Of a stretch of 53,066 nt of DNA, positions 27,260 through 52,889 are shown piece after piece. Both the position numbers and the translations under genes were made by a program. Source of the DNA: Sulfuricurvum sp. (GTDB taxonomy: Bacteria > Campylobacterota > Campylobacteria > Campylobacterales > Sulfurimonadaceae); the NCBI RefSeq assembly GCF_030691015.1, contig NZ_JAUYFF010000018.1, positions 1-53,066 of the forward strand, given 5' to 3'. The notes below the pieces were generated by a model that was not told where the DNA came from, did not search any database, and worked only from the letters and a program-made list of their open reading frames with translations. Each line of letters opens with the position of its first letter. Position 1 is the stretch's first letter.

Positions 27260-27293
27260 ATGTTAGCGTTTTATTCTTACAAATTCGTAACAA
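27260..27293 (-). promoter_or_regulatory. Direct-repeat box promoter F (degenerate)
   Basis: On the minus strand: TTGTTACG - AAT - TTGTAAGA (27293 to 27275), 9 nt, then TAACAT (27265-27260). Twelve of fifteen fixed positions agree with the consensus TTGCNACA-N3-TTGCAACA of boxes A-E, and both the 11-bp period and the 9-nt distance are kept. It would drive the copy 1 paralogue gene with a ~54-nt leader. Confidence 0.5.
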
Positions 27294-27373
27294 AAAAAGA
27301 TCTCATCTACTATCCAAGACTCTATAAAGAAGAATTTGAAAAAACTGCTATATATCTACAATTTTGGCTATTC

Positions 27374-28495
27374 TTAATGAATAAACGTGAGATTACTTAG
27401 ATCATTTCTGGGAAGTTTAATTTGAAATTCCGAACCATTCTCAAATGAGTGAAGGGTGAGTGATCCTCCAAACTCTTTTTCAATAGTGAGCTGAGCAAAA
27501 TGCAAGCCGATTCCAAATCCTACCCCTTTGTCTTTAGTTGAAAATTTAGGCTCAAATATCTTTTTACGGATCTCTTCGGGAATTCCTCCCGCTTCATCTC
27601 GAATAGAAAATAGATAGGTGTCTTTATCGATGAGCGCTCGAAATGTAATCGTTTTTTTCCCATCCATATGATTTCCGTTATAAGCATCACAGGCATTGTT
27701 AATGAGGTTTATGAGTACTTCTTCAATATCTGTTTTAAACCCGTAAATTTGTATCTCATCATCAAGAATATCAATAACCAAGTCAATCTCTTCTTTTTGA
27801 AATTGTTCATTGAAAAATAGTTTGATAGAATCGGTAAGTTCATGAACGGTGAAAAGTTGTTTTATCCGTTCGTCTTTCCCCATATTAAGGATACTTTTAA
27901 GAATATCAGACATTCTAGAAATCTGCTGTGAGATAAATTCGCTGCTTTTGAGGACTTCAGATGATTTGACAGTTTTATCGATATTGGCCAATACCATCAT
28001 ATTGATAGCCTCCATACTGATAAGGTTGATAGGCTGTCGCCACTGGTGTGCAATGATCTGAAGAGTATCTAACACACTTTTTTGGTACGAAGAACGGGTA
28101 ATAGCAGTATTATAATGATTGGTTCGGGCAATAGAGGAAAAAAAACGCTCTAATTGTTTCCACTCCACTGTATTCGTATTTCTAAGCAATTCGCGCTCTA
28201 AGCAAACTGTTTGTGCTTCTAACGAGAGGATATGTGCCAGTTTAGGCTGAAAGCTATCCGTGCAAAGGCAGATTCCCATATTTCCGACAAGCGCGTTGTG
28301 TGCCAAAACAATATCGCACAGCGAATTCGACAAAGCAGAGACGTCAACTATAATCCCTACAACATATTCATTAACCAGAAGCGGAGAATTTAGAGGAATG
28401 GGGATGACTTCAAACGATTTTATAAAAAATTCGGGAAGCGCTAATTGACGTGTGTCTTCGAAAAAATGGAGAATTATAGGGCGTTGTTTTGTCAT
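27374..28495 (-). CDS. Sensor histidine kinase
   Basis: The 373-residue product is a cytoplasmic histidine kinase with no membrane segment. Residues 1-~140 form an unrecognised N-terminal sensor region. The H-box is IIAHQWRQPIN (about residue 148), and the catalytic domain shows the N-box NLINNACDA, G1 RDEAGGIP, F-box FEPKFST and G2 GFGIGLH. It is the last gene of the transcription unit beginning at 34967; one base separates it from the upstream REC-GGDEF-EAL stop. The input is unknown. Confidence 0.87.
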   Translation of the reverse strand: MTKQRPIILHFFEDTRQLALPEFFIKSFEVIPIPLNSPLLVNEYVVGIIVDVSALSNSLCDIVLAHNALVGNMGICLCTDSFQPKLAHILSLEAQTVCLERELLRNTNTVEWKQLERFFSSIARTNHYNTAITRSSYQKSVLDTLQIIAHQWRQPINLISMEAINMMVLANIDKTVKSSEVLKSSEFISQQISRMSDILKSILNMGKDERIKQLFTVHELTDSIKLFFNEQFQKEEIDLVIDILDDEIQIYGFKTDIEEVLINLINNACDAYNGNHMDGKKTITFRALIDKDTYLFSIRDEAGGIPEEIRKKIFEPKFSTKDKGVGFGIGLHFAQLTIEKEFGGSLTLHSFENGSEFQIKLPRNDLSNLTFIH

Positions 28496-28496
28496 A

Positions 28497-30149
28497 TTAT
28501 TTCACTTCATACGGTGCTGCAACGGCATAGCCTTGCAGATAATCGATATCAATTGATCTGAGTAGTTCAATATCACTCGCTGTAGAGAGATGGGTGGCAA
28601 TCGCTTTTGCACCCACGAGATGAATTATATCCACTAATTTTTGAACAATCTGGATAGCTCTTGGTTCGGTATGAAGCTGTATTATCAGATCAGGATGAAT
28701 TTTAATATAATCCGGTTTTAACTCAAAAAGGTAGGCAAGGTTAAAATCACCCGAACCAAAACGGTTTAAGATGATTTTATAGCCATGAGCTTTGAGCTTT
28801 TTTATAAGAGGGAACATTGAGTTAGATACACTCTCTTTTGCACGTCCGACAAGTTCAAATGCAACTCTCGAAGGCTCCAATCGATAACGTTCCGTCCAAA
28901 ACTGAATATAGGAGAGGAGTGCGTCATCGTTGAGATCTTCATCTGCCAGACAAACGGTCAATATGGCATTTTTAGGCGTTATAGTAGCATTAAGGCTGAG
29001 AGTGTTCCGAATCATCGAACGGGTGATCATCGTCATTTGGTGTGTATTGATAGCAACATTTAAAAAGGTTTCCGGCCCGTATATTTTCTCTTCTTGACGT
29101 ATTCTAACAAAGCTGTTAAAAATTTCGATATCGCCGCTCGATGCATTTACAATCGGCTGAACATATGGGACAATGTTTTCCTCTTCAAGGGCATGAAAAA
29201 TCATCTTTAACACTTCTCGACCGTGTACAATAGTCTGATCACGCTCCTCATCGCTTTGGATAAACACCATCACACCGGCCGTATCAGGATGAATAATATT
29301 TTCAAGTGCCAAGCGTGAATTGGCCAATAAGTTTTCGGTTCCGTATGCGATTCCGATAGAGAGTGTTGAGTTGAGAATTATCCCTTTTTCTGATGTGTGA
29401 AAATAGCGTGCAATCGATACCATATCGTTGGCTAGAACATTGGCAAATTGTAGATTTTGATTTTTTAGAACAAGACAAAATTCATCACGGCTACAACGAT
29501 AGAATGTACCTTCTGAATTAATTTTGAGACTCTCCAACAGCGCTCCCAACTCACTGACATATTCGTCTGCATACTCTTCTCCCACAAGATCATAGATATT
29601 GGAGAGATAATTAACCCTTATACGCAGCAAAGCAACCGGTTCAGAAAGAGGCGATTTAAAAAATCCTTCCAGTTCAGGGAGTAATTTCCATCGAGTAACG
29701 GGATCGGTATGCCGTATCTTTACAACACTAGCCGAGGTATCTAGGAGAATTTTTTCAAGATATTGAAAAAATTTCGGCATTGAAAGAGGTTTTAAAAGAT
29801 ATCCCTGTACTTCCAATGAAATCGCTTCAGCCATGAAATCGGCATCATCATGGGCGGAAAGGATAAGGATCGGCTGCGATTTTGAAAGAGAACGAATCTC
29901 TTTTATGACACCAAGCCCCCCTTTTTTAGGCAGTTCAAGATCGGTAATGACAAGGGTAAACGACTCGTTAGATTCCAGCTTGTTTCGGTAGGTTTTTACC
30001 CCTTCGTCTCCGTCCGTCGCAATGATGCACTCTTTAAAAAACATTTGGACAATTCGTTTGAGCGATTCTGCTAATTCAGGATCATCATCGATAATAAGCA
30101 CTGACCGACTGGCACTGTCGATTTGAAGCCGCTGAATGATATTAGACAA
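28497..30149 (-). CDS. REC-GGDEF-EAL protein with degenerate output domains
   Basis: The 550-residue product has an intact N-terminal receiver (phospho-acceptor Asp in VITDLELP, Lys in LLKP), then a GGDEF and an EAL domain. The GGDEF motif reads SRDEF and its metal/nucleotide motif is lost. In the EAL domain the EAL triad reads NSF, DDFG reads NRFG, and KID reads KIH. I therefore predict no cyclase or phosphodiesterase activity, leaving a role as phospho-dependent binding partner or c-di-GMP sensor. The start is TTG at 30149 after GGGGAG, overlapping the upstream regulator gene by 8 bp. Confidence 0.83.
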   Translation of the reverse strand: MSNIIQRLQIDSASRSVLIIDDDPELAESLKRIVQMFFKECIIATDGDEGVKTYRNKLESNESFTLVITDLELPKKGGLGVIKEIRSLSKSQPILILSAHDDADFMAEAISLEVQGYLLKPLSMPKFFQYLEKILLDTSASVVKIRHTDPVTRWKLLPELEGFFKSPLSEPVALLRIRVNYLSNIYDLVGEEYADEYVSELGALLESLKINSEGTFYRCSRDEFCLVLKNQNLQFANVLANDMVSIARYFHTSEKGIILNSTLSIGIAYGTENLLANSRLALENIIHPDTAGVMVFIQSDEERDQTIVHGREVLKMIFHALEEENIVPYVQPIVNASSGDIEIFNSFVRIRQEEKIYGPETFLNVAINTHQMTMITRSMIRNTLSLNATITPKNAILTVCLADEDLNDDALLSYIQFWTERYRLEPSRVAFELVGRAKESVSNSMFPLIKKLKAHGYKIILNRFGSGDFNLAYLFELKPDYIKIHPDLIIQLHTEPRAIQIVQKLVDIIHLVGAKAIATHLSTASDIELLRSIDIDYLQGYAVAAPYEVK

Positions 30150-30822
30150 AATCTCCCCTTTTCATAATATAACCGAATCCACGAATGTTTTGAATCAAAT
30201 CCTCTTTGAGTTTTGCTCGGACACGATTGACCAATGAACGGATTGTCGAAGACTCGGTATCTTCTCCATCCCAGATAAAAGATCGGATACTTTCATCGGT
30301 CATTATTTGCCCAAGGTTACTGACAAATAAAATAATAAGTGAATATTCCCGTTTGGTAAATTGCTGTACTTTACCGTCATGATAGAGGAGATAGTTTTCT
30401 TTATTAAAGGTATAGTGATTGCTCAAATGGATAATCGGATCATTGACTTGCTCGATTTTCGGTTTTGCCTGTACGGTCAAATGGTGTATCCTGATATCGA
30501 GTTCTTTCAGATTAAACGGTTTTTTGAGATAATCGCTGCACCCAAAGGAGAAGGCATCCGATATATAGTCGACATCATGATAGGCACTAATGATGATTTT
30601 AGGAGTATCGGGATATTTTTCTGCAATAACTTTGAGGCATTCTAGCCCTCCGATGAGAGGAGTATTAATATCCAAAATATAAAAATCGTGCGCTTGAGAT
30701 TCTATGACTTCTAAAACCTCTTGTCCGTTATCGTAGTGATCGACGAGATGGCCACGAGAAAGGAGGTAAGTCCGAATGGATCGTGCCAGCATAAATTCGT
30801 CTTCTAATAACAGTATTTTCAC
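30142..30822 (-). CDS. OmpR/PhoB-family DNA-binding response regulator
   Basis: The 226-residue product has a receiver (acidic ED near residue 7, acceptor Asp in YILDINTP, Lys in YLKKPF) and a C-terminal winged helix of the OmpR/PhoB type (FTKREYSLIILF, then TIRSLVNRVRAKL, ending IRGFGYIM). It is the only DNA-binding response regulator in the island and is thus the leading candidate to bind the six direct-repeat boxes found here; family members bind tandem direct repeats. It is co-translated with its neighbours (4-bp overlap upstream, 8-bp overlap downstream). The cognate kinase is probably the REC-kinase next to it. Confidence 0.92.
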   Translation of the reverse strand: MKILLLEDEFMLARSIRTYLLSRGHLVDHYDNGQEVLEVIESQAHDFYILDINTPLIGGLECLKVIAEKYPDTPKIIISAYHDVDYISDAFSFGCSDYLKKPFNLKELDIRIHHLTVQAKPKIEQVNDPIIHLSNHYTFNKENYLLYHDGKVQQFTKREYSLIILFVSNLGQIMTDESIRSFIWDGEDTESSTIRSLVNRVRAKLKEDLIQNIRGFGYIMKRGDFV

Positions 30823-32006
30823 GTAGTAACTCCACTGTGCTTTGGTAGCGCCATTGTAGGCGAATTATGTTGCAAGAGTGTCGCATTTTCAAAAATATAA
30901 CGAAATGAGGTTCCGTGTTTGGCGGTAGATGAGATTTCAATCGCAACATTTTCCTCTTCACAGATTTGGGCGACAATACTTAGCCCCAGACCGTATCCCC
31001 CTTTATGATCGGATTCGCGGTGAAAACGTTGAAATATTTTCTGTTTATCTTTGATTAAAGGGCCATGATTGCGGATTTCAAAAAAGAGGTCTCCTTTTCG
31101 AGACCCTACCGTGACATTAATTTCTCCCGGGCGGTAGGAATACTTGATAGCATTAGACAGTGTATTGTCTATAAGTCTGGAAAGCTTTAATTCATTAAAA
31201 TTTATCCAAGGAAGGTTCGGCTGACCGACCCGCACCGAAAGGGTAAGTTCATTAACTTCAGCGATGCACGTAAAATATCGTACACGTTCATGAATAAATT
31301 CGACCACATCAATTGCGCTCATTTGTTCACTTACGCGATCGCGTTTCATCAGATAGGTCATATCTTCGTAGCTGTTTTGGATAATTCTTGATCCCGCTTC
31401 AATAGAGTTTAGAAATTCATTATCGATTCCATTCATCCGTAGCAGATCGATGTTGGTAATTATAACGGCAAGCGGTGTGTGGATTTCGTGGATCGCATTT
31501 TTTAAAAATTGATCCTGTTCTTCTAGGAGTTTAAGGGCATACTCTTTTGAATCTTTGAGTAATTGCTGGCTTTTTTTAAGCTCCAGATCATATTCTATTT
31601 TTTGCAATACATTAATAATGGCGTCAAAGAGTTCATCATGACTGATCGGTTTCAGAATAAATCGATCTACTCCGCATCGGATCGATTCAACAAATACCGA
31701 TCGATCTTCGGTACCCGAAATAGCAATCACTTTTTGATCCGGATCAATTTTTTTAATCTGAGCGGTTAAGTCAATACCACTCTCATGCGCAAGATTGATA
31801 TCCGTTAATATTAATATGATTTTATTATCGTTTTTTGCTGCATGATAGAGGGTTAGAGCCGCAGAAATAGTTTCAGCACGTTCGATATTTTTAAAAAATT
31901 TGGAGAGGATTTGGGCAAGTTTTTCACCTATTCGTTCATCATCTTCTACAATAAGGAGTGTTTTTTCATCTGCCAAATCTTTTAATAGTGCCAAGGAACT
32001 TTGCAT
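30819..32006 (-). CDS. Hybrid histidine kinase with N-terminal receiver
   Basis: The 395-residue product has a receiver domain first (acceptor Asp in ILTDINLA, Lys in ILKPIS), a coiled-coil linker, then a kinase core with H-box AIHEIHTPLAVI (about residue 188), NTLSNAIKYSY N-box, and GLGLSI G2 motif. The H-box (HEIHTP) is of the HisKA type, unlike the HQWRQP type of the other kinases in the island. It is cytoplasmic. It sits directly upstream of the OmpR-type regulator (ATGA overlap) and is therefore its likely partner. Confidence 0.9.
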   Translation of the reverse strand: MQSSLALLKDLADEKTLLIVEDDERIGEKLAQILSKFFKNIERAETISAALTLYHAAKNDNKIILILTDINLAHESGIDLTAQIKKIDPDQKVIAISGTEDRSVFVESIRCGVDRFILKPISHDELFDAIINVLQKIEYDLELKKSQQLLKDSKEYALKLLEEQDQFLKNAIHEIHTPLAVIITNIDLLRMNGIDNEFLNSIEAGSRIIQNSYEDMTYLMKRDRVSEQMSAIDVVEFIHERVRYFTCIAEVNELTLSVRVGQPNLPWINFNELKLSRLIDNTLSNAIKYSYRPGEINVTVGSRKGDLFFEIRNHGPLIKDKQKIFQRFHRESDHKGGYGLGLSIVAQICEEENVAIEISSTAKHGTSFRYIFENATLLQHNSPTMALPKHSGVTT

Positions 32007-32053: not shown

Positions 32054-33784
32054 TTAGGTTACGTATTGAATGGAGTGGTTCATTGCTATATTATAAGGGA
32101 TCGCCTGACCGTATAAGAAGCCCTGAGATTCATCAATACCCATGGCATTTACTTTTGCGCTTATAGACTCTTTACTGACAAATTCAGCAATCGTCTTTAT
32201 CCCCATTTTTCTTGCAAAATCAGAGAGCATCTCAACGATAACCTGTGAAATCAAGGTATCTTCAATGCCGAGAATAAGGGATCCATCGATTTTTATATAA
32301 TCGATATTGAGCTTAGCAAGGTGCTCAAAGTTAGAATATCCTGATCCGAAATCATCGATTGCTACTTTGCATCCATAATGTTTAATTTCAGAAAAAAAGT
32401 GTTGCACCGCTTCATAAGAACCTATCCCCTCAGATTCAAGAAGTTCAAATATCAAACGCTCAGGCTGGGGAAACAGGGCTATCTGCTCAATCAAAAATTC
32501 GCGAGTAGGGCGGTCTCTAATATCATCGATTGAGAGATTCATACTGACGGAACATTCCGAATGAGAAAAGCTTTCGAGAGTTTTTCGTATGATCATTTTC
32601 GTGATAGAGTTATACATTTTGGTCTCTTTGGCAATCGGTAAAAAAAGTCCCGGAGAGATTACTTCACCATCGGGTAAAATAAGTCGTGCCAATGCCTCGT
32701 ATTTAATGATTTTTTTCGTTTTATTATCGATAATCGGCTGGAAATAGGGGACAAAACGGTCTTCTTGAAGGGCTCGTTTGATCATGTCTTGATACTGTAA
32801 TTTCGTGGAGCGCTCCTGTACCGATCGCGTATCATTACTATAAATAATGATAGTTCCCTCTTTTTCCGCTTGACGCAGAGCAATGTCGGCATGCGAAAGC
32901 GGGGCGTCATCGCCGTGATCGACAATACCCGCTCCCATCTCCAAATACATCATCTGTCCATTGATTTGTATCTCCGTAGCTTCAAATTTATGGATAATTC
33001 GATGTATGTAATGATAGAGTTCTTTCGCATCCAACGGAGAGAGAACGGCAAAGTGGGCACCGCTGACACGATATATGGCATGAAAAGGCATAGCTTCCTC
33101 TTCAATAAATCTCGAGAGCAGCTCTGCTGTTTGCTTTAGGATGCTGTTTCCTACCGAATAGCCGTAAAAATCATTTACATTTTTAAAATTGTTTATTTTT
33201 AGCAATGAAAGGGAGTTATTACGGTGTTCTAGAAGATCATTCTCAAGCATAGCAAAAGAAAAAAGGCCGCTTATCCGATCGATAGTATACGTCAGTAATG
33301 CTTCACGACTTTTTTCGATAACAAGCTCTTCGAGATGCTCTTTGTAGGTTAGATTTTCTTTTTCCATCGATATTTTTGCAACGATTTTATAAAGGACATC
33401 GATCGTTTGAACCCTCTCGATCGGTTTAAAAAGATAGCCGTCTATTCCCAATTCTACGGAGCGGTGAAGGATGTCGCTCTCTTTATGTGCCGATACAAGT
33501 AAGGTTGCTTGGGTGGGATAGCGTTCTTTTATTTTTTCGATCATTTCCAAACCGTTCAGCAGCGGCATTTGATAATCGGTAATGACAAGATCATAACGAT
33601 TCGCCAATGCGGCCTTAAGACCATCTTCACCATTGGGTTCACTGTCAATCTCTTCAAAAAAACGGCTCAGGAAAGTGATATATTCTCGTCGAATAAACGG
33701 ATCGTCTTCCACATACAGTACACGAATTCCTTTAGCGGCATCTTGCAGTAATCGATAGTGTTCGTTTGAGTGGTTAGAATACAT
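32054..33784 (-). CDS. REC-GGDEF-EAL protein, probable c-di-GMP phosphodiesterase
   Basis: The 576-residue product has a receiver (Asp in VITDYQMP, Lys in LFKPIE), a degenerate GGDEF domain (SGAHF instead of GGDEF) and a complete EAL domain. The EAL residues present include YEALARL, the Asn in VSMNLS, the Glu in IFELLES, DDFGSGYS, DYIKIDG, IAEFV and QGFLYG. It should hydrolyse c-di-GMP, with the GGDEF remnant possibly acting as a GTP-sensing or structural module. It overlaps the upstream kinase gene by 11 bp. Confidence 0.9.
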   Translation of the reverse strand: MYSNHSNEHYRLLQDAAKGIRVLYVEDDPFIRREYITFLSRFFEEIDSEPNGEDGLKAALANRYDLVITDYQMPLLNGLEMIEKIKERYPTQATLLVSAHKESDILHRSVELGIDGYLFKPIERVQTIDVLYKIVAKISMEKENLTYKEHLEELVIEKSREALLTYTIDRISGLFSFAMLENDLLEHRNNSLSLLKINNFKNVNDFYGYSVGNSILKQTAELLSRFIEEEAMPFHAIYRVSGAHFAVLSPLDAKELYHYIHRIIHKFEATEIQINGQMMYLEMGAGIVDHGDDAPLSHADIALRQAEKEGTIIIYSNDTRSVQERSTKLQYQDMIKRALQEDRFVPYFQPIIDNKTKKIIKYEALARLILPDGEVISPGLFLPIAKETKMYNSITKMIIRKTLESFSHSECSVSMNLSIDDIRDRPTREFLIEQIALFPQPERLIFELLESEGIGSYEAVQHFFSEIKHYGCKVAIDDFGSGYSNFEHLAKLNIDYIKIDGSLILGIEDTLISQVIVEMLSDFARKMGIKTIAEFVSKESISAKVNAMGIDESQGFLYGQAIPYNIAMNHSIQYVT

Positions 33785-34967
33785 AGGTTATATCCTTAGT
33801 ATAGTTTGTTGGTATAGAGAGGGTAAAAACACTCCCCTCCGCATCGTTACAGACTTGTATGGAACCGTTTAAATGTTTTTCAATAATAATAGCCGACATG
33901 TACAAACCGAGCCCAGTCCCGTTTTTCTCTACTTTAGTCGAAAAATAGGGGTCAAATACCTTATCAATGATCTCTTCCGAAATCCCTCCGGCATTATCTC
34001 GAATGGAAAATACGATATTCTCTTCATTGTACACTGAATTGAATTGAATAAAAGGTTCGGGAATAAGGCGTTCTTCAAAAGCATCTTTAGAGTTGGTTAA
34101 TATATTCAAAAAGACCTGCATCAATTCATTTTTATAGGTAACAAAAGCGGCATCAACATCTCCCGTAAACGTTAGATTGATTCCAAAGTTTTTGTAATTT
34201 TTCCCCAACATTGTCAATAAATCATTTGACATCTCACGCAGAGAAACGCTCTGCGGCAATTTGTTCGGTCGAAAGAAGTTGCGAAAGTCGTCAATAGTGG
34301 TTGAGAGGTAATGAATCTGTTTATCAATCACATTTAAATCGTCTAAGAGATGTTGCTTGTTTATCTCATCAAATTCCAGTGTCAGAATCGTATTGTTGGT
34401 AATCATTCCGATAACGGTTATAGGCTGGCGCCATTGATGCGCGATCATACCGATCATTTCTCCCATAATCGCCATTCTTGATTGGGTAATCATCATCTTT
34501 TCAGTTATTTCATGCTTATTTTTTGCTTCAACAACTTGATTTTCGAGAGCAGTATTAAGTTCATGCAAGCGCTCAGTACTCCGACAAGCATCAATGGCAT
34601 TTGTCAGTTTCGTTTTAAACCCAGCAAACATCCGACCATAACCATCCGTTCCATCGCTGTTTTCAAATGCAAACAAAAAATGCTCGTTTCCGATCGGAAT
34701 ATCGAGAATATATCCGAGAGACGCTACTGCAACAATAGAATATTCCTCAATTGCAGTGCATAAAGTGACAGGAGTATCAAAATCCTTTTCGACAGTAACG
34801 ATTTTTTTTCGAGTAGGTACAGAGGTAAGATAATTGCCTCCTAAAGCTCCGGTATGATGTACAAATGTGGTGATAACATCGCTCAACATATTTTCAAGAA
34901 CAAGAGAGTTGCCTATGGCATTCATACAAACATAGGCAAGGGTTTGCTGTTCAGAGTAATCTTTCAT
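33774..34967 (-). CDS. Sensor histidine kinase, GAF-like input
   Basis: The 397-residue product lacks membrane segments. Residues ~1-140 resemble a GAF-type sensor, followed by a helical linker, H-box MIAHQWRQPITVIG (about residue 187), an N-box ILTNSKDA, G1 RDNAGGIS, F-box FDPYFST and G2 GTGLGLYMS. It is the first gene of a six-gene unit (kinase, REC-GGDEF-EAL, hybrid kinase, OmpR regulator, REC-GGDEF-EAL, kinase) that follows repeat box A. The -10 of that box lies only 6 nt upstream of the ATG, so the message may be leaderless. Confidence 0.87.
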   Translation of the reverse strand: MKDYSEQQTLAYVCMNAIGNSLVLENMLSDVITTFVHHTGALGGNYLTSVPTRKKIVTVEKDFDTPVTLCTAIEEYSIVAVASLGYILDIPIGNEHFLFAFENSDGTDGYGRMFAGFKTKLTNAIDACRSTERLHELNTALENQVVEAKNKHEITEKMMITQSRMAIMGEMIGMIAHQWRQPITVIGMITNNTILTLEFDEINKQHLLDDLNVIDKQIHYLSTTIDDFRNFFRPNKLPQSVSLREMSNDLLTMLGKNYKNFGINLTFTGDVDAAFVTYKNELMQVFLNILTNSKDAFEERLIPEPFIQFNSVYNEENIVFSIRDNAGGISEEIIDKVFDPYFSTKVEKNGTGLGLYMSAIIIEKHLNGSIQVCNDAEGSVFTLSIPTNYTKDITYVF

Positions 34968-34973
34968 ACCAAA

Positions 34974-35007
34974 AGTATAGCTCTCCTGTGTTGCAAGTAT
35001 GTGGCAA
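34974..35007 (-). promoter_or_regulatory. Direct-repeat box promoter A
   Basis: On the minus strand: TTGCCACA - TAC - TTGCAACA (35007 to 34989), 9 nt, then TATACT (34979-34974). No canonical -35 hexamer stands 17 nt before the -10; the second repeat overlaps that position, as in Pho-box promoters. It precedes the kinase gene at 34967 and lies 7 nt after the stop of the WD40-like gene. Confidence 0.65.
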
Positions 35008-40627: not shown

Positions 40628-40661
40628 ATTATGACGCCTTAGTGTTGCAAATATGTTGCAT
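40628..40661 (-). promoter_or_regulatory. Direct-repeat box promoter B
   Basis: On the minus strand: ATGCAACA - TAT - TTGCAACA (40661 to 40643), 9 nt, then CATAAT (40633-40628). Expected start near 40621, giving a ~28-nt leader with AAGGA before the kinase ATG at 40593. Confidence 0.65.
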
Positions 40662-40672: not shown

Positions 40673-40692
40673 ACGGGAAAGATTATTCCCGT
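40673..40692 (-). terminator. Possible terminator at the end of the CZB chemoreceptor gene
   Basis: A perfect 7-bp stem (ACGGGAA / TTCCCGT) overlaps the stop codon of the chemoreceptor gene. The downstream T content is low, so it may only attenuate read-through into the next unit. Confidence 0.35.
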
Positions 40693-42576: not shown

Positions 42577-42602
42577 ACTATTCTCCTTTCATTTGTTTAT
42601 TT

Positions 42603-44218: not shown

Positions 44219-44252
44219 ATGATAAATGTTTACTGTTGCAATAGTGTCGCAA
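44219..44252 (-). promoter_or_regulatory. Direct-repeat box promoter C
   Basis: On the minus strand: TTGCGACA - CTA - TTGCAACA (44252 to 44234), 9 nt, then TATCAT (44224-44219). Expected start near 44212, with AGAAGG in a ~23-nt leader before the heme receptor ATG at 44189. The box begins 5 nt after the stop of the upstream paralogue gene. Confidence 0.65.
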
Positions 44253-44257: not shown

Positions 44258-44827
44258 TTATTCAACATCGGAGTGACTTATCTCTTCAAGAAAACGGATA
44301 AACATTTGAAGCTGTTTTTTCTTTTTTGTGGAGCGGGCTTCGATAACTTTGTCACGAAAATGATCTAACAAGACATTTTGAAAAAGATAAAACTCAGAGG
44401 GGCTCATCCGCTCAGAAGCGTTGATTTTTTCTAATGCTGCATAAAGTTTTCTTCTTGTGGATGCCGTAAGTTCGTTATCCATATTCGCAAACACCGATTC
44501 ACATTCATAGATTGCTTTGGATGTAATGGAGACTTTATGTTCTTGTTCCGTTGTTTCTACGGCTAATAGCTTGAATTTTTGTGTCGTACTTTGGTACAGG
44601 TGCCGGTATTGGGAAATTAAATTATATTGGTGGATAATACTATCGATAGCCGCGTGCTGACTTAAATAAAAAATCGGAAGTTTTCCATAAATTTCAATGA
44701 CGGTTCTACCATTGGGAGATTGATACCACGTCAAAATTTTTGCCCCTTTGAGTCGTGCTTTGAGTATTATCTCTTCGAGTAAATGTTCGGAGGAATTATT
44801 CGTGGATACTGACAATATTGAGCACAT
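44258..44827 (-). CDS. Unrecognised ~188-residue family, copy 2
   Basis: This 189-residue cytoplasmic protein is the paralogue of the product of 26636-27199 and shares its whole length, including LKGAKI, W-x-QSPNG, the YLS motif, the R-LYQ helix, and the C-terminal KKKQ[12 protein letters not shown]. No known domain is recognised. The start ATG lies inside the 30-codon ORF at 44796-44888, in another frame, with no obvious ribosome-binding site, so its translation may depend on that ORF. It sits between the chemotaxis operon and the chemoreceptor genes, under box D. Confidence 0.7.
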
Positions 44828-44888
44828 AGGTCATCACTGAAAGTAAAAAAACAAATGCAGCAAATACAACTACAAAAAGGCTGAGCAT
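44796..44888 (-). CDS. Small 30-residue membrane ORF overlapping the copy 2 paralogue start
   Basis: Reading from ATG 44888 gives 30 residues with an almost uninterrupted hydrophobic core ([20 protein letters not shown]), typical of a single membrane span, and then a TAA stop. It is the first ORF after the predicted start of box D (near 44915), and AAGG lies 9 nt upstream. It overlaps the 5' end of the copy 2 gene by 32 bp in another frame, so it could be a translational leader or a genuine small membrane protein. No homologue is recognised. Confidence 0.45.
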   Translation of the reverse strand: MLSLFVVVFAAFVFLLSVMTYVLNIVSIHE

Positions 44889-44921
44889 CAAATAAAACCT
44901 TTTAATTCAAATAGATAAAGA

Positions 44922-44955
44922 ATCATAAGGTTTTAGTGTTGCAAGTTTGTCGCAA
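44922..44955 (-). promoter_or_regulatory. Direct-repeat box promoter D
   Basis: On the minus strand: TTGCGACA - AAC - TTGCAACA (44955 to 44937), 9 nt, then TATGAT (44927-44922). It starts one base after the stop of the receiver-protein gene at the end of the chemotaxis operon, and would drive the 30-codon ORF and copy 2 of the unknown family. Confidence 0.65.
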
Positions 44956-46407: not shown

Positions 46408-47451
46408 TTAAAAAGTCTGAATACGCTGAGGGATATCACCCAAATGTACTACTTCGCGAACGGCTTGTGATTCGATAGCTTTGAGCGGCATTCCGAAAAC
46501 AACGCAATCTTTTTCACTTTGCGCTATTGTCAATGCACCCGAGTCATACATCTCTTTCATGCCGATAGAACCGTCATCTCCCATCCCTGTTAGCATGATC
46601 CCCATGGCTTTTGAGCCGACGGCATTGTTGACGCTGCGGAAAAGAATATCGACACTCGGTTTGTGGCGGCTGATACGGGGGCCGTCGAGAAGCTTAATAA
46701 AATATTTGCCTTGACGGTTTTCCAAAAGCATATGACGGTTTCCCGGAGCGATATAAACCGATGACTCATTTACCATATCACCCTCTTGTGCCTCTTTAAT
46801 GCTCAAAGCAGAGAGTCGATTGAGCCGCTCCGCAAAACTTCCCGAAAATCCGAACGGAATGTGCAGCGTGATCAATATCGGCGGAAGAGGAGGGGATATC
46901 TGAGAAAATATCCTCATCAGGGTCTCAACGCCTCCCGTAGATGCTCCGATCGCAATGACTTTGGATGCATGAATAAGTGCCGGTTTTTTTACGAGTAGCG
47001 CATCAGGATGGATTTTTTCTGTTTCGATTTCAATAGGCTCTTTTTTGGCTCTGTTTTTCGTTTTATAGCGATCAATTAAAAACGTTAAACGCATCAGCGT
47101 ATCTTCGATTCGCGCAAAAAATGATTCATCCTTTTCGCCAATCCCTTTTTTCGCGATAAAGCCGACGGCACCGTCATCGAAAACATCATGATGGCGTGAC
47201 ACATCCGTAGAAATGACGATTGCGGGCATCGGATGAAGCCGCATTAAATTGCGTAAAAAAGTGACTCCGTCCATTTTGGGCATATTGATATCAATAGTGA
47301 CCAAATCAGGCTCATGCTGTTTAATCAGATCACGAGCTTCAAAAGCGTCCGATGCGGTTGCAATCACTTTAAAATCTTCAAGACGCGAAATCATGTCTGA
47401 GAGGATACGCTGCATCAAAGGAGAGTCGTCAATAACAATAACCGTATACAT
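46408..47451 (-). CDS. cheB: Protein-glutamate methylesterase/deamidase CheB
   Basis: CheB removes methyl groups from chemoreceptors and so resets sensitivity. The 347-residue product has the N-terminal receiver (VIDDSPLM; acceptor Asp in VTIDINMP; Lys in FIAKKG) and the C-terminal methylesterase with the catalytic Ser in GASTGG, His in LHIPFGF and Asp in GMGDDGSIG. Having the receiver, it differs from Campylobacter jejuni CheB, which lacks one. It starts 9 nt after the cheD stop. Confidence 0.96.
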   Translation of the reverse strand: MYTVIVIDDSPLMQRILSDMISRLEDFKVIATASDAFEARDLIKQHEPDLVTIDINMPKMDGVTFLRNLMRLHPMPAIVISTDVSRHHDVFDDGAVGFIAKKGIGEKDESFFARIEDTLMRLTFLIDRYKTKNRAKKEPIEIETEKIHPDALLVKKPALIHASKVIAIGASTGGVETLMRIFSQISPPLPPILITLHIPFGFSGSFAERLNRLSALSIKEAQEGDMVNESSVYIAPGNRHMLLENRQGKYFIKLLDGPRISRHKPSVDILFRSVNNAVGSKAMGIMLTGMGDDGSIGMKEMYDSGALTIAQSEKDCVVFGMPLKAIESQAVREVVHLGDIPQRIQTF

Positions 47452-47460
47452 CTGATACTC

Positions 47461-48084
47461 CTAAAACAAGGTAACGGCGTTGTCGAGCGGAACCGTTTCG
47501 GTTTTGTTGATAATTTTTGCCAATTCGCGATCGGCATTCGCCAGCCGCTCATCCATCGAACGATTTATGATTGTTTTAGAGACGGTATTAAAAGCACTAT
47601 CGAGCATAACGACCCGCCCGTTTGTTCCCAAAACATTCTCCGCTACCACCCGAATTCCCTCGGAGCGGCAAAAACTTCGGGCAAATATCACGTTACGCTC
47701 CCCGATATTGTCGCTGAAATTGTGCAGGACGTTGGCTCCTCCGGCAATTTTTGCATTAATATTTTCTTTACGGGATCCAAGTTTGTACATTTCATTCAGC
47801 ATTGATTCCATCGCATAAAGACCGAACCGACATGACGTTCCCTGTGTACAGGAGGAGGGCAAAAGGAAGTGGTTCATCCCTTTGATCTGCAAAACGCTGT
47901 CATACAGCATTACCGCGACACACGATCCCAACAGGGTCGTAATAGGGAGATTATCACTATCGTAGGTTATAGCAAACTCACCGCCGATGATTCCGAGAGT
48001 CTCTTTGTTTTGTATGTATTTGATCGCATCAGGGTGGGATAATTTAACGATTTTAGAATCTACCGTCCCTTTGATAATTTTCAT
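47461..48084 (-). CDS. cheD: Chemoreceptor glutamine deamidase CheD
   Basis: CheD deamidates receptor glutamines and can bind CheY-P-related phosphatases in other bacteria. The 207-residue product has the catalytic Cys in LLGSCVAV and the His in GMNHFLLP, followed by the family's NINAKIAGGANVL block. The ATG at 48084 overlaps the cheR stop by 4 bp; an upstream in-frame start would add 13 residues inside cheR. Confidence 0.93.
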   Translation of the reverse strand: MKIIKGTVDSKIVKLSHPDAIKYIQNKETLGIIGGEFAITYDSDNLPITTLLGSCVAVMLYDSVLQIKGMNHFLLPSSCTQGTSCRFGLYAMESMLNEMYKLGSRKENINAKIAGGANVLHNFSDNIGERNVIFARSFCRSEGIRVVAENVLGTNGRVVMLDSAFNTVSKTIINRSMDERLANADRELAKIINKTETVPLDNAVTLF

Positions 48085-48917
48085 AAGTACTCTTTTGTTT
48101 TTACAAATATATTTTGTCCGCACCGCTCTACATAAGGAGCCAGTTCCAATGGACTTTCTGAATGTCCAAGATAAAGTGTTCCACCCAATTTAAGGGTTCT
48201 AAAAAGTTTTTTCAAAATAGCGTTTTGATCGTCTTGATTAAAATAGATAAGTACATTTCGACAAAAAACAACATCAAATTCTTCAGACTTAAACGGATAG
48301 CTCACTGACATTAAATTCATCTGATCAAACCGAACTTTACGCATAAGATGATCTTTGACTTTAATCAGATAATCATCCTCTTTTGTTGGATGCGCTCTGC
48401 GTTTAAAATACTCGGCCGGCTTTATCCATGAAGGAAAATCATCCGCATTTTTATTCCACTCATAGATACCGCTAGAGGCATGTTTTAAGACATCCAGGTC
48501 AATATCGGTCGCAAGGAGGGAATAATTTGACAATGCCGTTTTATATTCGCGGTTTGCCTCTTCTATCGTCATCAAAATCGAGTAGGGTTCTTCGCCCGTC
48601 GAAGCGGCGGAACAATAGATTTTAAGAGACTGATTCGATTCGATCGCCTGTTTAACGACCCGCTCTTTTAGATCATCAAAATGAAACGTTTCACGAAAAA
48701 AATTCGTTTTATTGGTGGTAAAAGTACTGACAAATATCTCAATATGGTGACCGTTTTCAACCAATGCTAAAATCGCATCGATATCCTCGGAGTTAAGAGA
48801 ACGCTTCAGTTTATCGAGACGATTGGAGATCATTACATCTTTATTGTCACCCAGCGTAATCCCGCTATGACGATACGCGAGATCACGCGCACGATCAAGC
48901 TGACGCGCTGAGTACAT
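48081..48917 (-). CDS. cheR: Chemoreceptor methyltransferase CheR
   Basis: CheR methylates glutamates of chemoreceptors using S-adenosylmethionine. The 278-residue product has the N-terminal helical domain (DLAYRHSGITL, then NKTNFFRE) and the SAM-binding fold (IYCSAASTGEEPYSI, and FDVVFCRNVLIYF). I start at ATG 48917, giving a normal-length protein; a longer frame to 48986 would add 23 residues within cheW. It overlaps cheW by 23 bp. The window's terminal chemoreceptor has a VWESF pentapeptide that CheR could use for docking. Confidence 0.94.
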   Translation of the reverse strand: MYSARQLDRARDLAYRHSGITLGDNKDVMISNRLDKLKRSLNSEDIDAILALVENGHHIEIFVSTFTTNKTNFFRETFHFDDLKERVVKQAIESNQSLKIYCSAASTGEEPYSILMTIEEANREYKTALSNYSLLATDIDLDVLKHASSGIYEWNKNADDFPSWIKPAEYFKRRAHPTKEDDYLIKVKDHLMRKVRFDQMNLMSVSYPFKSEEFDVVFCRNVLIYFNQDDQNAILKKLFRTLKLGGTLYLGHSESPLELAPYVERCGQNIFVKTKEYL

Positions 48918-49395
48918 GCATTGTCTCAGGAGATTGACGAGAAAGCTTCTGCATCTCTTCTTTATCCAAAATACGGTCAATATCAAGGATTACGATCATC
49001 TTGTCCTCTTTTTTAAACAGCCCTTTGAGATATTCAGGGGCGATTGACGTCCCCATATCGGGTGCCGGATAGAGGCGGTCGAGTTCAGCATTTTCCATAT
49101 CGGATACTTCATCGACGACTAGACCGATCATCCGTGCATCTTGGGTTTTAACGGCGATAATGATCGTACGATTCGTATAGATAGGATCATTATTGATGTT
49201 AAATCGCACCCGCAAATCGATGACGGGAGCCACTTCGCCGCGCAAATTAATCACCCCTTTAACCCAGCGTGACGCGTCGGGAATAGGGGTAACGGTAGGG
49301 TAGGTTAGGATCTCTCTCACTTTAGAGATTTGAATCCCGTAGGTTTCGTTTCCGAGTTTAAAAGTGAGGAGTTGATTGCTCTCTATGATTGACAT
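48895..49395 (-). CDS. cheW: Chemotaxis coupling protein CheW
   Basis: CheW links CheA to receptors in the polar array. The 166-residue single-domain product has the typical YGIQISKVREIL, the INLRGEVAPVIDLR block and the IGLVVDEVSDM segment. It is 9 nt downstream of cheA. Confidence 0.95.
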   Translation of the reverse strand: MSIIESNQLLTFKLGNETYGIQISKVREILTYPTVTPIPDASRWVKGVINLRGEVAPVIDLRVRFNINNDPIYTNRTIIIAVKTQDARMIGLVVDEVSDMENAELDRLYPAPDMGTSIAPEYLKGLFKKEDKMIVILDIDRILDKEEMQKLSRQSPETMHVLSASA

Positions 49396-49404
49396 AATGC
49401 TCTC

Positions 49405-51474
49405 CTAGTAGTTTTTATCTAATATATTCATCGTATCGATGATAAGACCGATGGTTCCGTCTCCGCGTACCGTCGCTCCGCCTATTCCGCGTGCATTACG
49501 GAAATTTCGATCGAGCGGCTTAATGACAAACTGCTGCTGATTCATAAATTCATCAACGAACAGAGCGATTTTTTGCGCCGCCGAGCGTACCACGATCAAC
49601 AATCCCTCAGAGAGTTTTTGATGCTCATATTCGACGTTAAAAATCGTATGAAGCCGTACAACAGGAATAAACTCATTGCGAAGCATCAACACTTCTGACT
49701 GCGTATCTCCGATCTGCTTGATCATCTCCTCTTCAGGTTTGATCGATTCGATGATGGCTGAAAGAGGCAAAATAAACTGCTCCGCTCCGACACGGATATT
49801 AAGCCCGTCCAAAATCGCGAGGGTCAGAGGAAGTGCAATCGTAAATGTACTTCCATATCCCTCTTCGGTATCGACTTTCACAATTCCGCCGAGTTTTTTG
49901 ATGTTAGACATAACCACATCCATCCCGACACCGCGTCCGGAAATATCAGTGACGGCATCAGCCGTACTAAGACCCGGAGCAAATATGAGCATTGCTTTCT
50001 CTTCCTCACTCATCGAATACGCTTGATGCTCATCTATAACGCCGTTTTCCAACGCTTTAGCGGTTACTTTGGCGAGATTGATTCCGCCGCCGTCATCTTG
50101 TATTTTAATAATCATTTGACCATTAGCCTGCTCCGCACTCATCATCAGAGTACCGGTTTCGGGTTTGCCCGCTTTACGTCGTCGCTCAGGAGATTCGATA
50201 CCGTGATCAAGGCCGTTTCGTACGATATGCATCAACGGATCGGTTAGCCCCTCAATCATTGCCTTATCGATCTCGACACTCTCTCCGAAGCTACGGAAAT
50301 CGATCTTTTTGTCGAGTTTTTTCGCCGTATCGCGGATCACTTTAGGAAACTTTGAAAAAACGGTCTCCATCGGAACCATTCGGACACTCATAACCGATTC
50401 TTGCAGCTCACGGATATGGCGATCGATCAGTTCGAGCCGCTCACCCAAATCAGATTTTGTTTTTTGGTCTTCCATCGTATAGATATACTGAGAAAGCATC
50501 GAATGAGCAATTACAAGCTCTCCGATATTATTCATCAACCCGTCAATCTTCGAGAGATCAACACGAATCGAATTGGAAGTCGTATCGGCTTTGAACTTTT
50601 TCGCTACCTTTGATTCATCTACCGCTGCTTCTGGAAGTGCTTCTTTAGATTTTGGCTCTGATCTCTTTTCCGGCAGAGAAACTTTTACTTTCTGTTGAGG
50701 CTCTATCTCCATAAAAAACCCGAAATGATCGTCATCCGATTCTTCTACATCTGCAGAAACGGTTGCCACAGGGCTTAGCGGTTCTTCTGTTTCATCGAAG
50801 AATCCGAACATCTCCTCTTTGGCCTCTTGCATCGTTATCTCTTCAAGATCATCGAAAAGTCCGAAAACATCTTCGAATGGAGGAAGTTCTCTTTGCGGAG
50901 CTTCATCATCGAAGAGTCCGAAATACTCTTCCATGCTCTCAGGCATCTCTTCTGCTTTGTCAGAGAATTCACCGGAAATGGGCCCAAACCCTTTATCATC
51001 ATCGATCGGCATGAGCAATCCGAAGTCATCTTTCTCCTCTTCGAGAAGGATTAACGCGGCAACCTCTTGGGTATCTTCACTAAAAGATTCAATTTTTTGG
51101 AGCAAAGACATTTTCGTTGTATGGAAAAAACTCTCTTCGAGTTCACCGGAGAGCTCCATCTCTAAAATCTGTTTGAGGGTATCGATCCCTTCAATCAAAA
51201 GCTCTGCCATACTCTCTTCAAATGCGAGTTCACCGTTACGCAATCTGTCCATGAAAAATTCAAGTTCATGGGCAAGTGCGGCGAACATAGCCAGTTCTAC
51301 CGAAGCCGAGTTCCCTTTGAGCGTATGAACGGAACGAAACAGAGAATTAACCGTTTCATTGTCCATATCACCCGATTCTTCCGCTTCGAGCAAAATGGTA
51401 TCGATGGTTTCAAATATGTCTTCCGCTTCTTCTAAAAACATTTGACGATATTTATTAATATCAAACACTGCCAT
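49405..51474 (-). CDS. cheA: Chemotaxis histidine kinase CheA with FG-motif linker
   Basis: The 689-residue kinase phosphorylates CheY and CheB. Order: P1 HPt domain with the phospho-His at 50 (SVHTLKGNSA), a ~180-residue acidic linker (140-300), the P3 dimerisation helices, the P4 ATPase (GLDHGIESPERR, GRGVGMDVV), and the P5 CheW-like domain. No C-terminal receiver is present, unlike the CheAY of Helicobacter and Campylobacter. In the linker, where P2 would normally bind CheY, five short motifs recur: an acidic residue near FG followed by two hydrophobic residues (FGLL 151, FGLF 185, FGLF 204, FGFF 223, FGFF 251), the middle three 19 residues apart. Good order in the operon: cheY precedes by 8 nt, cheW follows by 9 nt. 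Confidence 0.95.
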   Translation of the reverse strand: MAVFDINKYRQMFLEEAEDIFETIDTILLEAEESGDMDNETVNSLFRSVHTLKGNSASVELAMFAALAHELEFFMDRLRNGELAFEESMAELLIEGIDTLKQILEMELSGELEESFFHTTKMSLLQKIESFSEDTQEVAALILLEEEKDDFGLLMPIDDDKGFGPISGEFSDKAEEMPESMEEYFGLFDDEAPQRELPPFEDVFGLFDDLEEITMQEAKEEMFGFFDETEEPLSPVATVSADVEESDDDHFGFFMEIEPQQKVKVSLPEKRSEPKSKEALPEAAVDESKVAKKFKADTTSNSIRVDLSKIDGLMNNIGELVIAHSMLSQYIYTMEDQKTKSDLGERLELIDRHIRELQESVMSVRMVPMETVFSKFPKVIRDTAKKLDKKIDFRSFGESVEIDKAMIEGLTDPLMHIVRNGLDHGIESPERRRKAGKPETGTLMMSAEQANGQMIIKIQDDGGGINLAKVTAKALENGVIDEHQAYSMSEEEKAMLIFAPGLSTADAVTDISGRGVGMDVVMSNIKKLGGIVKVDTEEGYGSTFTIALPLTLAILDGLNIRVGAEQFILPLSAIIESIKPEEEMIKQIGDTQSEVLMLRNEFIPVVRLHTIFNVEYEHQKLSEGLLIVVRSAAQKIALFVDEFMNQQQFVIKPLDRNFRNARGIGGATVRGDGTIGLIIDTMNILDKNY

Positions 51475-51482
51475 AGGTATCC

Positions 51483-51851
51483 TTATCGACTTAGGACGAT
51501 TCCCACCGCCTTAAGAAGCTGTTCGGGTACGAACGGTTTAACGATCCAGCCTGTCGCTCCGACTGCTTTTCCTTTTGCTTTCATATCATCATTTTTCTCG
51601 GTCGTAAGAGTCAAAATCGGCGTTTTCGCATAGGTCGGAAGTTTGCGCAGCTCGATGATCAAATCAAATCCGTTCATATTCGGCATATTGATATCGGTAA
51701 CGATTAAATCAAAAACTGCAGATTTTGCTTTTTCCAAACCATCCACTCCGTCCACCGCTTCGGTAACATCAGGGTATCCACCTTCATTTAAAGCATATTT
51801 GACCATATCACGCAACATATTAGAATCATCTACAATTAGAATTTTTGGCAT
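51483..51851 (-). CDS. cheY: Chemotaxis response regulator CheY
   Basis: CheY-P binds the flagellar switch to change rotation. The 122-residue single receiver domain has DDSNMLRDM near the N-terminus, the acceptor Asp in VTDINMP (about 53), the Thr in TLTTEK and Lys in WIVKPF. I start at ATG 51851, which follows GGAGAG; an ATG four codons upstream is less likely. It lies between the cheZ-like gene and cheA. Confidence 0.95.
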   Translation of the reverse strand: MPKILIVDDSNMLRDMVKYALNEGGYPDVTEAVDGVDGLEKAKSAVFDLIVTDINMPNMNGFDLIIELRKLPTYAKTPILTLTTEKNDDMKAKGKAVGATGWIVKPFVPEQLLKAVGIVLSR

Positions 51852-51924
51852 TTTTCTCTCCATAAGTTAAATTTTTTTAGCCCTCTCAGGCGACACTAAA
51901 CCATGACCTCACATGAGGCAGATT

Positions 51925-52782
51925 TTAAAACAGAGTGAACTCATCTATTTCACTTTGATCCGGCTTGCATTTTTGCATAGCATCATCTTTGCCCTGTACA
52001 AAATCACGTTGATCTTGAATGGTGTAAAACGGTACGAGACGCTCTTTAAAGATAACCTCTTTATCATGAGGGATATTGCATCCTAGTTCAGCAGCATGTC
52101 GGATATCATCATCCATAATCTTTCCGATCCCGTCGATCATCTGGGTAATACGGTCTTCGCACTGAAGTACCATGATAAATCCGAACATCGCTTTAATCAC
52201 TTCATCGGTACGATCGAGAATCGATCGGGTCATATTCCACGACTCTTCCAAATCATTGAACTCTTTCGGAACAATCTGCTCTTTTAATGCCGTCAGTTTT
52301 TCATGTGCAAGAGTAGTATCTTTGTGTATGGCACGCATCTCTTCGACACGCTCTTCAAAAATCGTTTCGATCTCTTTGGTACTCTCGCGCATATTGAGCT
52401 TGATCCCCTCAAGATTCGCATAGTGCACCGACGTATCGACGCTAAAACGCTGGAGCGTATCGCGAAGGGCTCGCGTTTTCCCTTTTTGATCAATATGGGA
52501 TCGATATGCGTCGAGCATACTCGGTAAACGATGAAGCCGTTTACGGTCGATCCATGCGCTAAATGTACTCGGAACCAAATGGCGTTCATGATCGGGATTA
52601 TCGAGAGCAACAATAAAAAAGCTCTCATTTGGATTTACCAAGGCTCCCGCATATTCAACATGTTCCAGTCCACAGATCATGACATCACAATCTACCTCTT
52701 CGGCAGAAGCGACTCTATAGCCCGCATCTTCCAAAGAGGGAAAACCGGAGTCATCTTCCAGTAAATTCCATATTTTCTTCAT
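51925..52782 (-). CDS. CheZ-like CheY-P phosphatase with receiver-like N-terminus
   Basis: The 285-residue product is first in the chemotaxis operon. Its helical second half carries MVLQCEDRITQMIDG (about residues 204-218), matching the CheZ active-site helix: the acidic Asp 210 and the Gln 214 in the D-x3-Q arrangement that inserts into CheY-P. The C-terminus, SEIDEFTLF, resembles the CheZ CheY-binding tail (acidic, ending in an aromatic). Remote CheZ homologues occur in Helicobacter. Residues 1-95 read like a degenerate receiver without acceptor Asp. GAAGGA precedes the ATG. The CheZ assignment rests on motif and context and is not certain. Confidence 0.62.
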   Translation of the reverse strand: MKKIWNLLEDDSGFPSLEDAGYRVASAEEVDCDVMICGLEHVEYAGALVNPNESFFIVALDNPDHERHLVPSTFSAWIDRKRLHRLPSMLDAYRSHIDQKGKTRALRDTLQRFSVDTSVHYANLEGIKLNMRESTKEIETIFEERVEEMRAIHKDTTLAHEKLTALKEQIVPKEFNDLEESWNMTRSILDRTDEVIKAMFGFIMVLQCEDRITQMIDGIGKIMDDDIRHAAELGCNIPHDKEVIFKERLVPFYTIQDQRDFVQGKDDAMQKCKPDQSEIDEFTLF

Positions 52783-52855
52783 AACTATTCCTTCAATACT
52801 TTTCGAAACGTCATAACCGTAGATTAATTTTTCGGCATCTCTAATCTGTCTTAGC

Positions 52856-52889
52856 AGTATCCCATATTAGTGTTGCAAGTTTGTGGCAA
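52856..52889 (-). promoter_or_regulatory. Direct-repeat box promoter E (chemotaxis operon)
   Basis: On the minus strand: TTGCCACA - AAC - TTGCAACA (52889 to 52871), 9 nt, then GATACT (52861-52856). Predicted start near 52849, ~67 nt upstream of the cheZ-like ATG. It would drive the eight-gene che operon. Confidence 0.65.

Follow-up and report, generated by a model that had tools for sequence, protein, structure and literature searches.

The question raised by contig C10 of a Sulfuricurvum sp. genome (2.33 Mb in 19 contigs), which in its full length of 53,066 bases is the window analyzed here, is how a dense group of sensory genes is switched on. The island between 27.4 and 52.8 kb encodes, according to Pfam, kinases, receiver-GGDEF-EAL proteins, one OmpR-type regulator, a beta-propeller protein, chemoreceptors (CZB or class 40H), a PAS protein, and a che operon. 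A first-pass annotation of the window had seen a direct repeat (“box”) with an 11-bp period and a −10-like hexamer 9 nucleotides (nt) behind it in front of the units of this island. The repeat is a real promoter signature. With a probability of about 0.85, it is the operator of an OmpR/PhoB-type regulator, most likely of the protein P0001 encoded within the island, which would act as a sigma70-dependent activator in place of a −35 motif.

On the minus strand, TTGCNACA-N3-TTGCAACA was found without mismatch at 34989-35007, 44234-44252, 44937-44955, and 52871-52889, as had been annotated, and with one mismatch at the likewise annotated position 40643-40661. All five sites carry the −10-like hexamer at 9 nt (TATACT, TATCAT, TATGAT, GATACT, and CATAAT, respectively). 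A sixth annotated site, 27275-27293, did not hold up as a box: it has four mismatches and a score of 3.8, inside the range of the shuffle maxima (0.1 to 7.6). At the orthologous place in the related genome G112, upstream of the gene for P0004, the −10-like hexamer is kept and the box is absent (score −10.8), and no box occurred within 200 nt of relatives with 32 to 35% identity to P0004 in G037, G094, G100, and G014. The annotation had also seen no copy elsewhere in the window, which was wrong, since it overlooked a good box at 30868-30886 with one mismatch and TACAAT at 9 nt. The sites, given with their −10 hexamer and score, are as follows.

30853-30886, minus strand: box ATGCGACA-CTC-TTGCAACA + N9 + TACAAT, inside the 3′ end of the open reading frame (ORF) 30819-32006 and just upstream of the P0001 gene; score 32.5
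34974-35007, minus strand: box TTGCCACA-TAC-TTGCAACA + N9 + TATACT, heading a kinase/EAL cluster with ORF 33774-34967 as the first one; score 36.4
40628-40661, minus strand: box ATGCAACA-TAT-TTGCAACA + N9 + CATAAT, heading a kinase/beta-propeller cluster, ORF 39211-40596; score 43.0
44219-44252, minus strand: box TTGCGACA-CTA-TTGCAACA + N9 + TATCAT, heading a chemoreceptor trio with its ATG at 44189; score 31.8
44922-44955, minus strand: box TTGCGACA-AAC-TTGCAACA + N9 + TATGAT, heading a micro-ORF and the P0002 gene; score 39.5
52856-52889, minus strand: box TTGCCACA-AAC-TTGCAACA + N9 + GATACT, heading the che operon; score 39.3
27260-27293, minus strand: degenerate copy, unsupported as a box; score 3.8

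The weight matrix behind these scores draws on 166 distinct sites in 19 genomes; this genome and its two nearest relatives, G104 and G112, did not enter it. Scores of the six good sites ranged from 31.8 to 43.0. Apart from them, the window scored at most 5.6, where one good site was read in a shifted frame, and the best position of each of ten first-order Markov shuffles gave the 0.1 to 7.6 mentioned above. When up to three mismatches were allowed, the window contained 7 matches versus 1.54 expected, a number reached by 1 of 100 shuffles. This window statistic is modest alone, and genome comparisons were used in its place.

The core TGCNACA-N4-TGCAACA was sought, without requiring a −10 motif, in the 22 genomes with P0001 or an orthologue and in genome G066. 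It matched 138 times in these 23 genomes (133 times in the 22), and the reversed pattern did not match at all. Among the 129 of the 133 core repeats with at least 40 nt of downstream sequence, NANNNT was located exactly 9 nt downstream in 125 cases; the counts at the other offsets between 0 and 29 were 0 to 45. Four or more letters of TATAAT were also present at 9 nt in 125 of the 129 repeats, as expected for the −10 motif of a sigma70 promoter. Two of the four exceptions represent the upstream pair of a three-repeat array, the downstream pair of which possesses the −10 motif. These arrays, with three tandem half-sites in 11-bp steps and a single −10 motif, are located at G052:C36:45983-46011 and G076:C39:14756-14784. 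The consensus is (T/A)TGCNACA-N-A-N-TTGCAACA-CTAA-N5-TATAAT with A/T-rich bases ahead of it. Counted 17 nt back from the −10 motif, the six bases belong to the core (positions 5 to 10, ACA-NAN) and do not form a −35 hexamer. According to PMC3847290, the −10 motif of sigma70 promoters in C. jejuni and H. pylori has the form TAnaAT, and those of C. jejuni possess a −10 but no −35 motif, which makes an activator in the place of the −35 motif plausible.

P0001 contains a receiver domain (PF00072, 76.5 bits) and a Trans_reg_C domain (PF00486, 48.4 bits), both above the Pfam cut-off, and is the only one of the island proteins scanned with a Pfam DNA-binding domain. Its residues D8, E9, D51, S79, and K101, which we take to be the phosphorylation-related residues of OmpR/PhoB-type regulators, are invariant in 18 aligned sequences. 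P0001 or an orthologue occurs in 22 of 121 genomes of the family (Sulfuricurvum, Sulfurimonas, and kin), this one included, with 300 to 503 bits and 62 to 98% identity of the orthologues; G076 has two copies, and the next best relatives in the 121 genomes reach at most 175 bits. A search of named genomes yielded seven matches in Sulfuricurvum (98 to 80% identity), one in Sulfurimonas (71%), one in Campylobacterales (72%), besides two distant matches (26% and 23%), and in an order-wide sample, the 11 of 348 genomes with a match at an E value of 1e-60 all belonged to this family.

Boxes with at most one mismatch and NANNNT at 9 nt were counted in the 121 genomes. The 22 genomes with P0001 contained 240 matches, 3 to 25 each, versus 42 in the 99 genomes without P0001, of which G066 contributed 6 and the other 98 genomes 0 to 2 each; the reversed pattern gave 19 matches over all 121 genomes. 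Statistical tests treat related genomes as independent, and therefore the splits within genera were relied on. In the genus of the present genome, 13 genomes with P0001 (3 to 25 matches) stand against 22 without (0 to 2), in genus g16 two with P0001 (4 and 11 matches) against six without (all 0), and in genus g2 seven with P0001 (3 to 16 matches) against 27 without (0 to 2). The matches in G057 are spread over 577 to 2240 kb of one contig with the regulator gene at 1636 kb, so the link between box and P0001 is not merely shared DNA. A box is positioned directly upstream of the P0001 gene in 16 of the 22 genomes (17 copies). The proposal of one OmpR-type activator for the island, already made from the window, is thus backed by the co-occurrence with P0001, by the box upstream of the regulator gene, and by the fixed distance to the −10 motif. 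P0003, encoded by the head gene of the che operon, was found in 9 of the 121 genomes, all nine with P0001.

Within this genome, up to two mismatches gave 20 matches versus 6 for the reversed pattern. All 10 matches with no or one mismatch have A at position 2 and T at position 6 of the hexamer at 9 nt, and so do 6 of the 10 with two mismatches (C4:523336, C15:125494, C16:400, C16:2986, C17:206867, and C15:122947, the last on the opposite strand of a listed site); the remaining four (C4:22919, C4:170038, C12:86443, and C17:206878) do not. Genome-wide, the motif with no or one mismatch is clearly set apart from chance. Where the weight matrix was applied, it gave scores of at least 20 to six boxes of the window, to five on C15, to two on C16, and to one each on C4 and C17, and with nine boxes outside of the window, a regulon confined to the 26-kb island was too narrow a view. 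Behind the boxes on C15 and C16 follow genes for a beta-propeller protein, a receiver protein and then a chemoreceptor, a POTRA-like protein, two pairs of PAS protein and chemoreceptor, and two more chemoreceptor-like proteins. The −10 motif of the C17 box and the first ATG of a chemoreceptor ORF overlap, and the C4 box is followed by an unassigned ORF of 86 codons. The right end of C15 and the left end of C16 break within a chemoreceptor gene and have 13 bases in common, and in G094 and G037, boxed genes of the same families sit on one contig each. For these reasons, C15, C16, and C10 are probably one island; the comparison of contig ends gave no overlap between the end of C16 and C10. Of 26 matches to chemoreceptor domains in the genome, 8 (one of them a tail fragment) are on C10, C15, or C16 or at the C17 gene, and 18 are elsewhere.

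The targets were defined as ORFs behind cores without mismatch, or behind boxes with at most one mismatch and a −10 motif. Among the matches listed, to which all target counts refer, an ORF of at least 70 amino acids starts within 260 nt of the box at 200 of 214 sites, with a median gap of 35 nt between the −10 motif and the ORF start. After removal of duplicates and four ORFs of G066, 138 of the 193 distinct downstream ORFs fall into 11 recurrent families, each named after one member. A PAS protein family is represented by at least 26 sites in at least 16 genomes, and two chemoreceptor families by at least 20 sites in at least 13 and at least 7 sites in at least 6 genomes. The kinase families of ORFs 33774-34967 and 39211-40596 have at least 18 sites in at least 13 and at least 7 sites in at least 7 genomes. 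P0001 itself follows with at least 17 sites in at least 16 genomes, a receiver protein with at least 14 in at least 11, a beta-propeller protein with at least 12 in at least 12 (its member here is encoded on C15 and is distinct from that of 35015-37108), a POTRA-like protein with at least 8 in at least 8, P0003 with at least 5 in at least 5, and P0002-type proteins with at least 4 in at least 3. Among 116 first ORFs behind cores with no mismatch and a −10 motif, the Pfam domains assigned were receiver (20 ORFs), MCP signal (19), PAS (18), HATPase (16), CZB (12), and Trans_reg_C (10). The genes of the island are as follows, with domains from Pfam.

28497-30149, minus strand: receiver-GGDEF-EAL protein
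30142-30822, minus strand: P0001, OmpR-type response regulator (receiver + Trans_reg_C), the proposed reader of the box as judged by Pfam, co-occurrence, and recognition helix
30819-32006, minus strand: hybrid kinase (receiver + HisKA + HATPase), its gene overlapping that of P0001; candidate cognate kinase by adjacency only
32054-33784, minus strand: receiver-GGDEF-EAL protein
33774-34967, minus strand: histidine kinase of a recurrent first-target family
35015-37108, minus strand: beta-propeller (WD40-like) protein
39211-40596, minus strand: histidine kinase-like protein (HATPase) of a recurrent first-target family
40683-44189, minus strand: chemoreceptor trio of MCP + CZB, PAS protein, and HAMP + MCP with a class 40H sensor
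44258-44827, minus strand: P0002, 189 amino acids, boxed, with no match in Pfam or NCBIfam
46408-52782, minus strand: che operon for P0003, a CheY-type receiver, CheA, CheW, CheR, CheD, and CheB
51925-52782, minus strand: P0003, head of the che operon, predicted to have a receiver-like N-terminal fold, long helices with LQCEDRITQMIDG, and an acidic/aromatic C terminus

PhoB is understood as an activator that overlaps the −35 region. In a similar manner, the two direct 8-mers, one helical turn of 11 bp apart, would bind two P0001 molecules next to each other on the same face of the helix, and the bound dimer, 9 nt before the sigma70 −10 motif and in the position of the −35 motif, would recruit RNA polymerase. 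Phosphorylation by one or more of the island kinases may switch the regulon on, with the product of ORF 30819-32006 as first choice by adjacency only, and P0001 may boost its own expression via the box at 30868. The output would be an accessory sensory apparatus of chemoreceptors, PAS proteins, kinases, and receiver and EAL proteins, including the che operon here and in some relatives. If this is true, one two-component switch sets an accessory chemosensory system of receptors and receiver-EAL proteins, and these bacteria may restrict the building of this apparatus to certain conditions. From sequence alone, the analysis names a probable regulator with its operator and targets for a sensory regulon of environmental sulfur oxidizers, Sulfuricurvum and Sulfurimonas.

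Several points weigh against this interpretation. In 6 of the 22 genomes (G046, G052, G070, G088, G089, and G099), there is no box with at most one mismatch directly upstream of the P0001 gene; the one in G099 is weaker (score 21.7), and the P0001 loci of G088, G070, and G052 are without a good box within about 1.5 kb. G066 and G012 carry good boxes yet no P0001 orthologue; for G066, three of the five core matches were inspected (on its contigs C4, C111, and C366) and those on C69 and C202 left out. Some matches are probably not P0001 sites, since a few in G046 are chance-like and one in G070 fits the box of the sister regulator described below. The genomes are related, so that the counts are not independent, and co-occurrence would equally fit any other gene distributed like P0001. 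The target counts come from stretches chosen around the matches listed and do not represent complete regulons. Moreover, we infer activation rather than repression from the spacing and the missing −35 motif.

This last point bears on the possibility that P0001 binds the box but represses, covering the promoter until a signal frees it. Repressors, too, bind at the −35 region that the box overlaps. A repressor, however, has no need of a fixed register to the −10 motif, which is nevertheless kept at exactly 9 nt in 125 of the 129 sites. There is also no −35 hexamer 17 nt before the −10 motif, an argument not decisive alone because C. jejuni sigma70 promoters have none either (PMC3847290). Repression is therefore regarded as unlikely. 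The box may instead be read by another DNA-binding protein encoded nearby, for instance, by the receiver protein with a ribbon-helix-helix-like C terminus of G000:C15:116090-116680, which adjoins a boxed cluster on C15; its ribbon-helix-helix domain is our own reading and not a Pfam match. Such proteins are able to bind tandem repeats. This protein occurs in 99 of the 121 genomes (70 to 100% identity), most of them without boxes, and did not reach the cut-off in G069 (16 box matches) or in G085 (7); P0001, on the other hand, is the sole scanned island protein with a Pfam DNA-binding domain. The alternative reader is thus very improbable and was rejected.

The repeat could also be a promoter element of another sigma factor, either extracytoplasmic function (ECF) or sigma54-like, because the spacing of TTGC-N7-TTGC equals that of TGGC and TTGC at −24 and −12 in the sigma54 consensus. 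Sigma54 requires GG at −24 and GC at −12, whereas the six window sites have TTGC or ATGC as the first element, so that the GG is absent (for the 129 sites, the search pattern itself prescribed this letter). The sigma70-type −10 motif with its A and T at 9 nt in 125 of 129 repeats argues against both variants, as does the presence of boxes, which tracks P0001. A pair of similar half-sites at an 11-bp distance, extended to a tandem of three in G052 and G076, fits an operator rather than a sigma factor site, and this reading was rejected with hardly any doubt left. Finally, many boxes lie within one island in several genomes, as they would if they were passengers of a mobile or repeated DNA segment with no regulatory role. 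Yet the bases between the half-sites and the −10 motif vary with the −10 kept, the matches in G057 are dispersed, and an ORF follows at 200 of the 214 sites; the chance that the boxes are mere passengers is close to nil.

With an operator of P0001 as the preferred interpretation, the recognition helix was compared with the half-site. STIRSLVNR is invariant in the 18 aligned P0001 orthologue sequences (G104 and G112 each included twice), and TIRSLVNR is identical across all 22 orthologue loci. The nearest paralogue family, 11 loci with 38 to 43% identity, has a T[IM]RAE[VI] helix in ten of them, mostly TIRAEV, and no P0001-type box at any of the 11 loci (best score 9.6). A related, TGCTAC-based box was present at four of the five paralogue loci inspected (L219, L220, L052, and L054). 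TGCTAC-N5-TGCTAC with a −10 motif at the same place matched 65 times in 47 of the 121 genomes versus 5 times for the reversed pattern, and 33 of the 65 matches share the strand of a listed paralogue and lie 63 to 285 nt beyond its end. This box explains some of the P0001-box matches with one mismatch, in G078 without and in G070 with P0001. The sister regulator of this genome (G000:C17:61528-62295, locus L219) has the helix ATIRAEVSRLKK; 91 nt further on, TGCTACG-N4-TGCTACG + N9 + CATAAT is followed by an ORF that we read as porin-like.

In G066 and G012, which are without P0001, good boxes are within 2 kb of other OmpR-type regulators (L224, L225, and L226; 26 to 29% identity to P0001) with the helices STLRALVKRFR, KTLRSLIFRIR, and STLRSLINRFR. 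These boxes precede ORFs that resemble surface proteins, and the G012 box is located between a regulator with a TLR helix and such an ORF in divergent orientation. Against a code that relates helix and half-site, no box was present at the locus of a third such regulator of G012, L217 (RTLRSLIFRIR). The pairing of TGCTAC boxes with sister regulators is the strongest hint at such a code. An extended proposal, to which we give even odds, is a family-wide promoter grammar in which two 7-bp half-sites repeat at 11 bp and a sigma70 −10 motif follows after 9 nt. In this grammar, the helix of the OmpR-type regulator would set the half-site, T[IL]R[SA]L[VI] for TGCAACA (P0001 and the G066/G012 regulators) and TIRAEV for TGCTACG (the sister), and P0001 would be the master switch of the whole accessory chemosensory and kinase apparatus. 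The two boxes and two recognition helices would be a simple, testable case of how the specificity of OmpR-type regulators diverges.

The likeness to the Pho box, which had been pointed out from the window, holds for the geometry and for nothing beyond: in both cases, tandem repeats recur every 11 bp and take the place of the −35 motif. Pho box half-sites are CTGTCAT and thus unlike the box here, and P0001 stayed below the cut-offs of the PhoB equivalog models (TIGR02154, 64.7 bits with a cut-off of 296.2; NF053854, 83.8 bits with a cut-off of 270). Within the same phylum, the orphan OmpR-type regulator HP1043/HsrA of H. pylori was footprinted on direct repeats 11 bp apart, mostly on the coding strand (PMC5253667). 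According to this source, HP1043 is essential, has other targets, and uses the half-site TTTAAG instead of TTGCAACA, and its second repeat is less conserved, whereas both are conserved here. The OmpR-family regulator RR2/PceP of Sulfurospirillum, also of this phylum, binds direct repeats that overlap the −35 region, and activation was assumed by the authors; as given in PMC7755780, its site is CTATW-N17-CTATW and its targets are organohalide respiration genes. For Sulfurospirillum, Sulfuricurvum, and Sulfurimonas, PMC9321776 reports extra che classes beside F3, among them F7, and mainly 40H receptors; the word “promoter” is absent from its text. Neither the papers cited above nor a literature search, with most subscription journals outside its coverage, yielded a report of this box, or of OmpR-type control over a chemotaxis regulon, in Sulfuricurvum or Sulfurimonas, and the papers listed for the half-site itself were unrelated. 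The type of switch is known, but the regulon itself seems to be new.

P0003, whose gene heads the che operon, bears a putative resemblance to CheZ. It had no match in Pfam or NCBIfam and none among solved structures by sequence (best E value, 0.99). The structure model is of low confidence, with a predicted local distance difference test (pLDDT) score of 65 and a predicted template modeling (pTM) score of 0.40, and yielded no Foldseek match at an E value of ≤0.001. A second structural comparison of this low-confidence model returned mostly receiver domains over residues 1 to 110 (Z up to 9.6) and a few long-helix proteins; CheZ was absent among the matches listed, which excludes nothing. The reading frame upstream of the che operon (52890-53066) ends with ...DDVWESF and, by eye, the chemoreceptor on C16 (L022) with ...DDTIWENF, which we take to resemble the tails of receptors that tether CheR/CheB.

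The arrangement of box, micro-ORF, and P0002-type gene at 44937 is repeated in one locus of G104 and two of G076, with strong boxes there. The hydrophobic ORF of about 30 codons at 44790-44890, recognized by eye between this box and the P0002 gene, has a similar counterpart in G104 (L162, 1130-1222). The ATG of the kinase ORF 33774-34967 is located only 6 nt past the −10 motif (window positions 34961-34979), with the same spacing in G057, G104, and G112, and since this is found in this genome and three relatives, the kinase mRNA may be leaderless.

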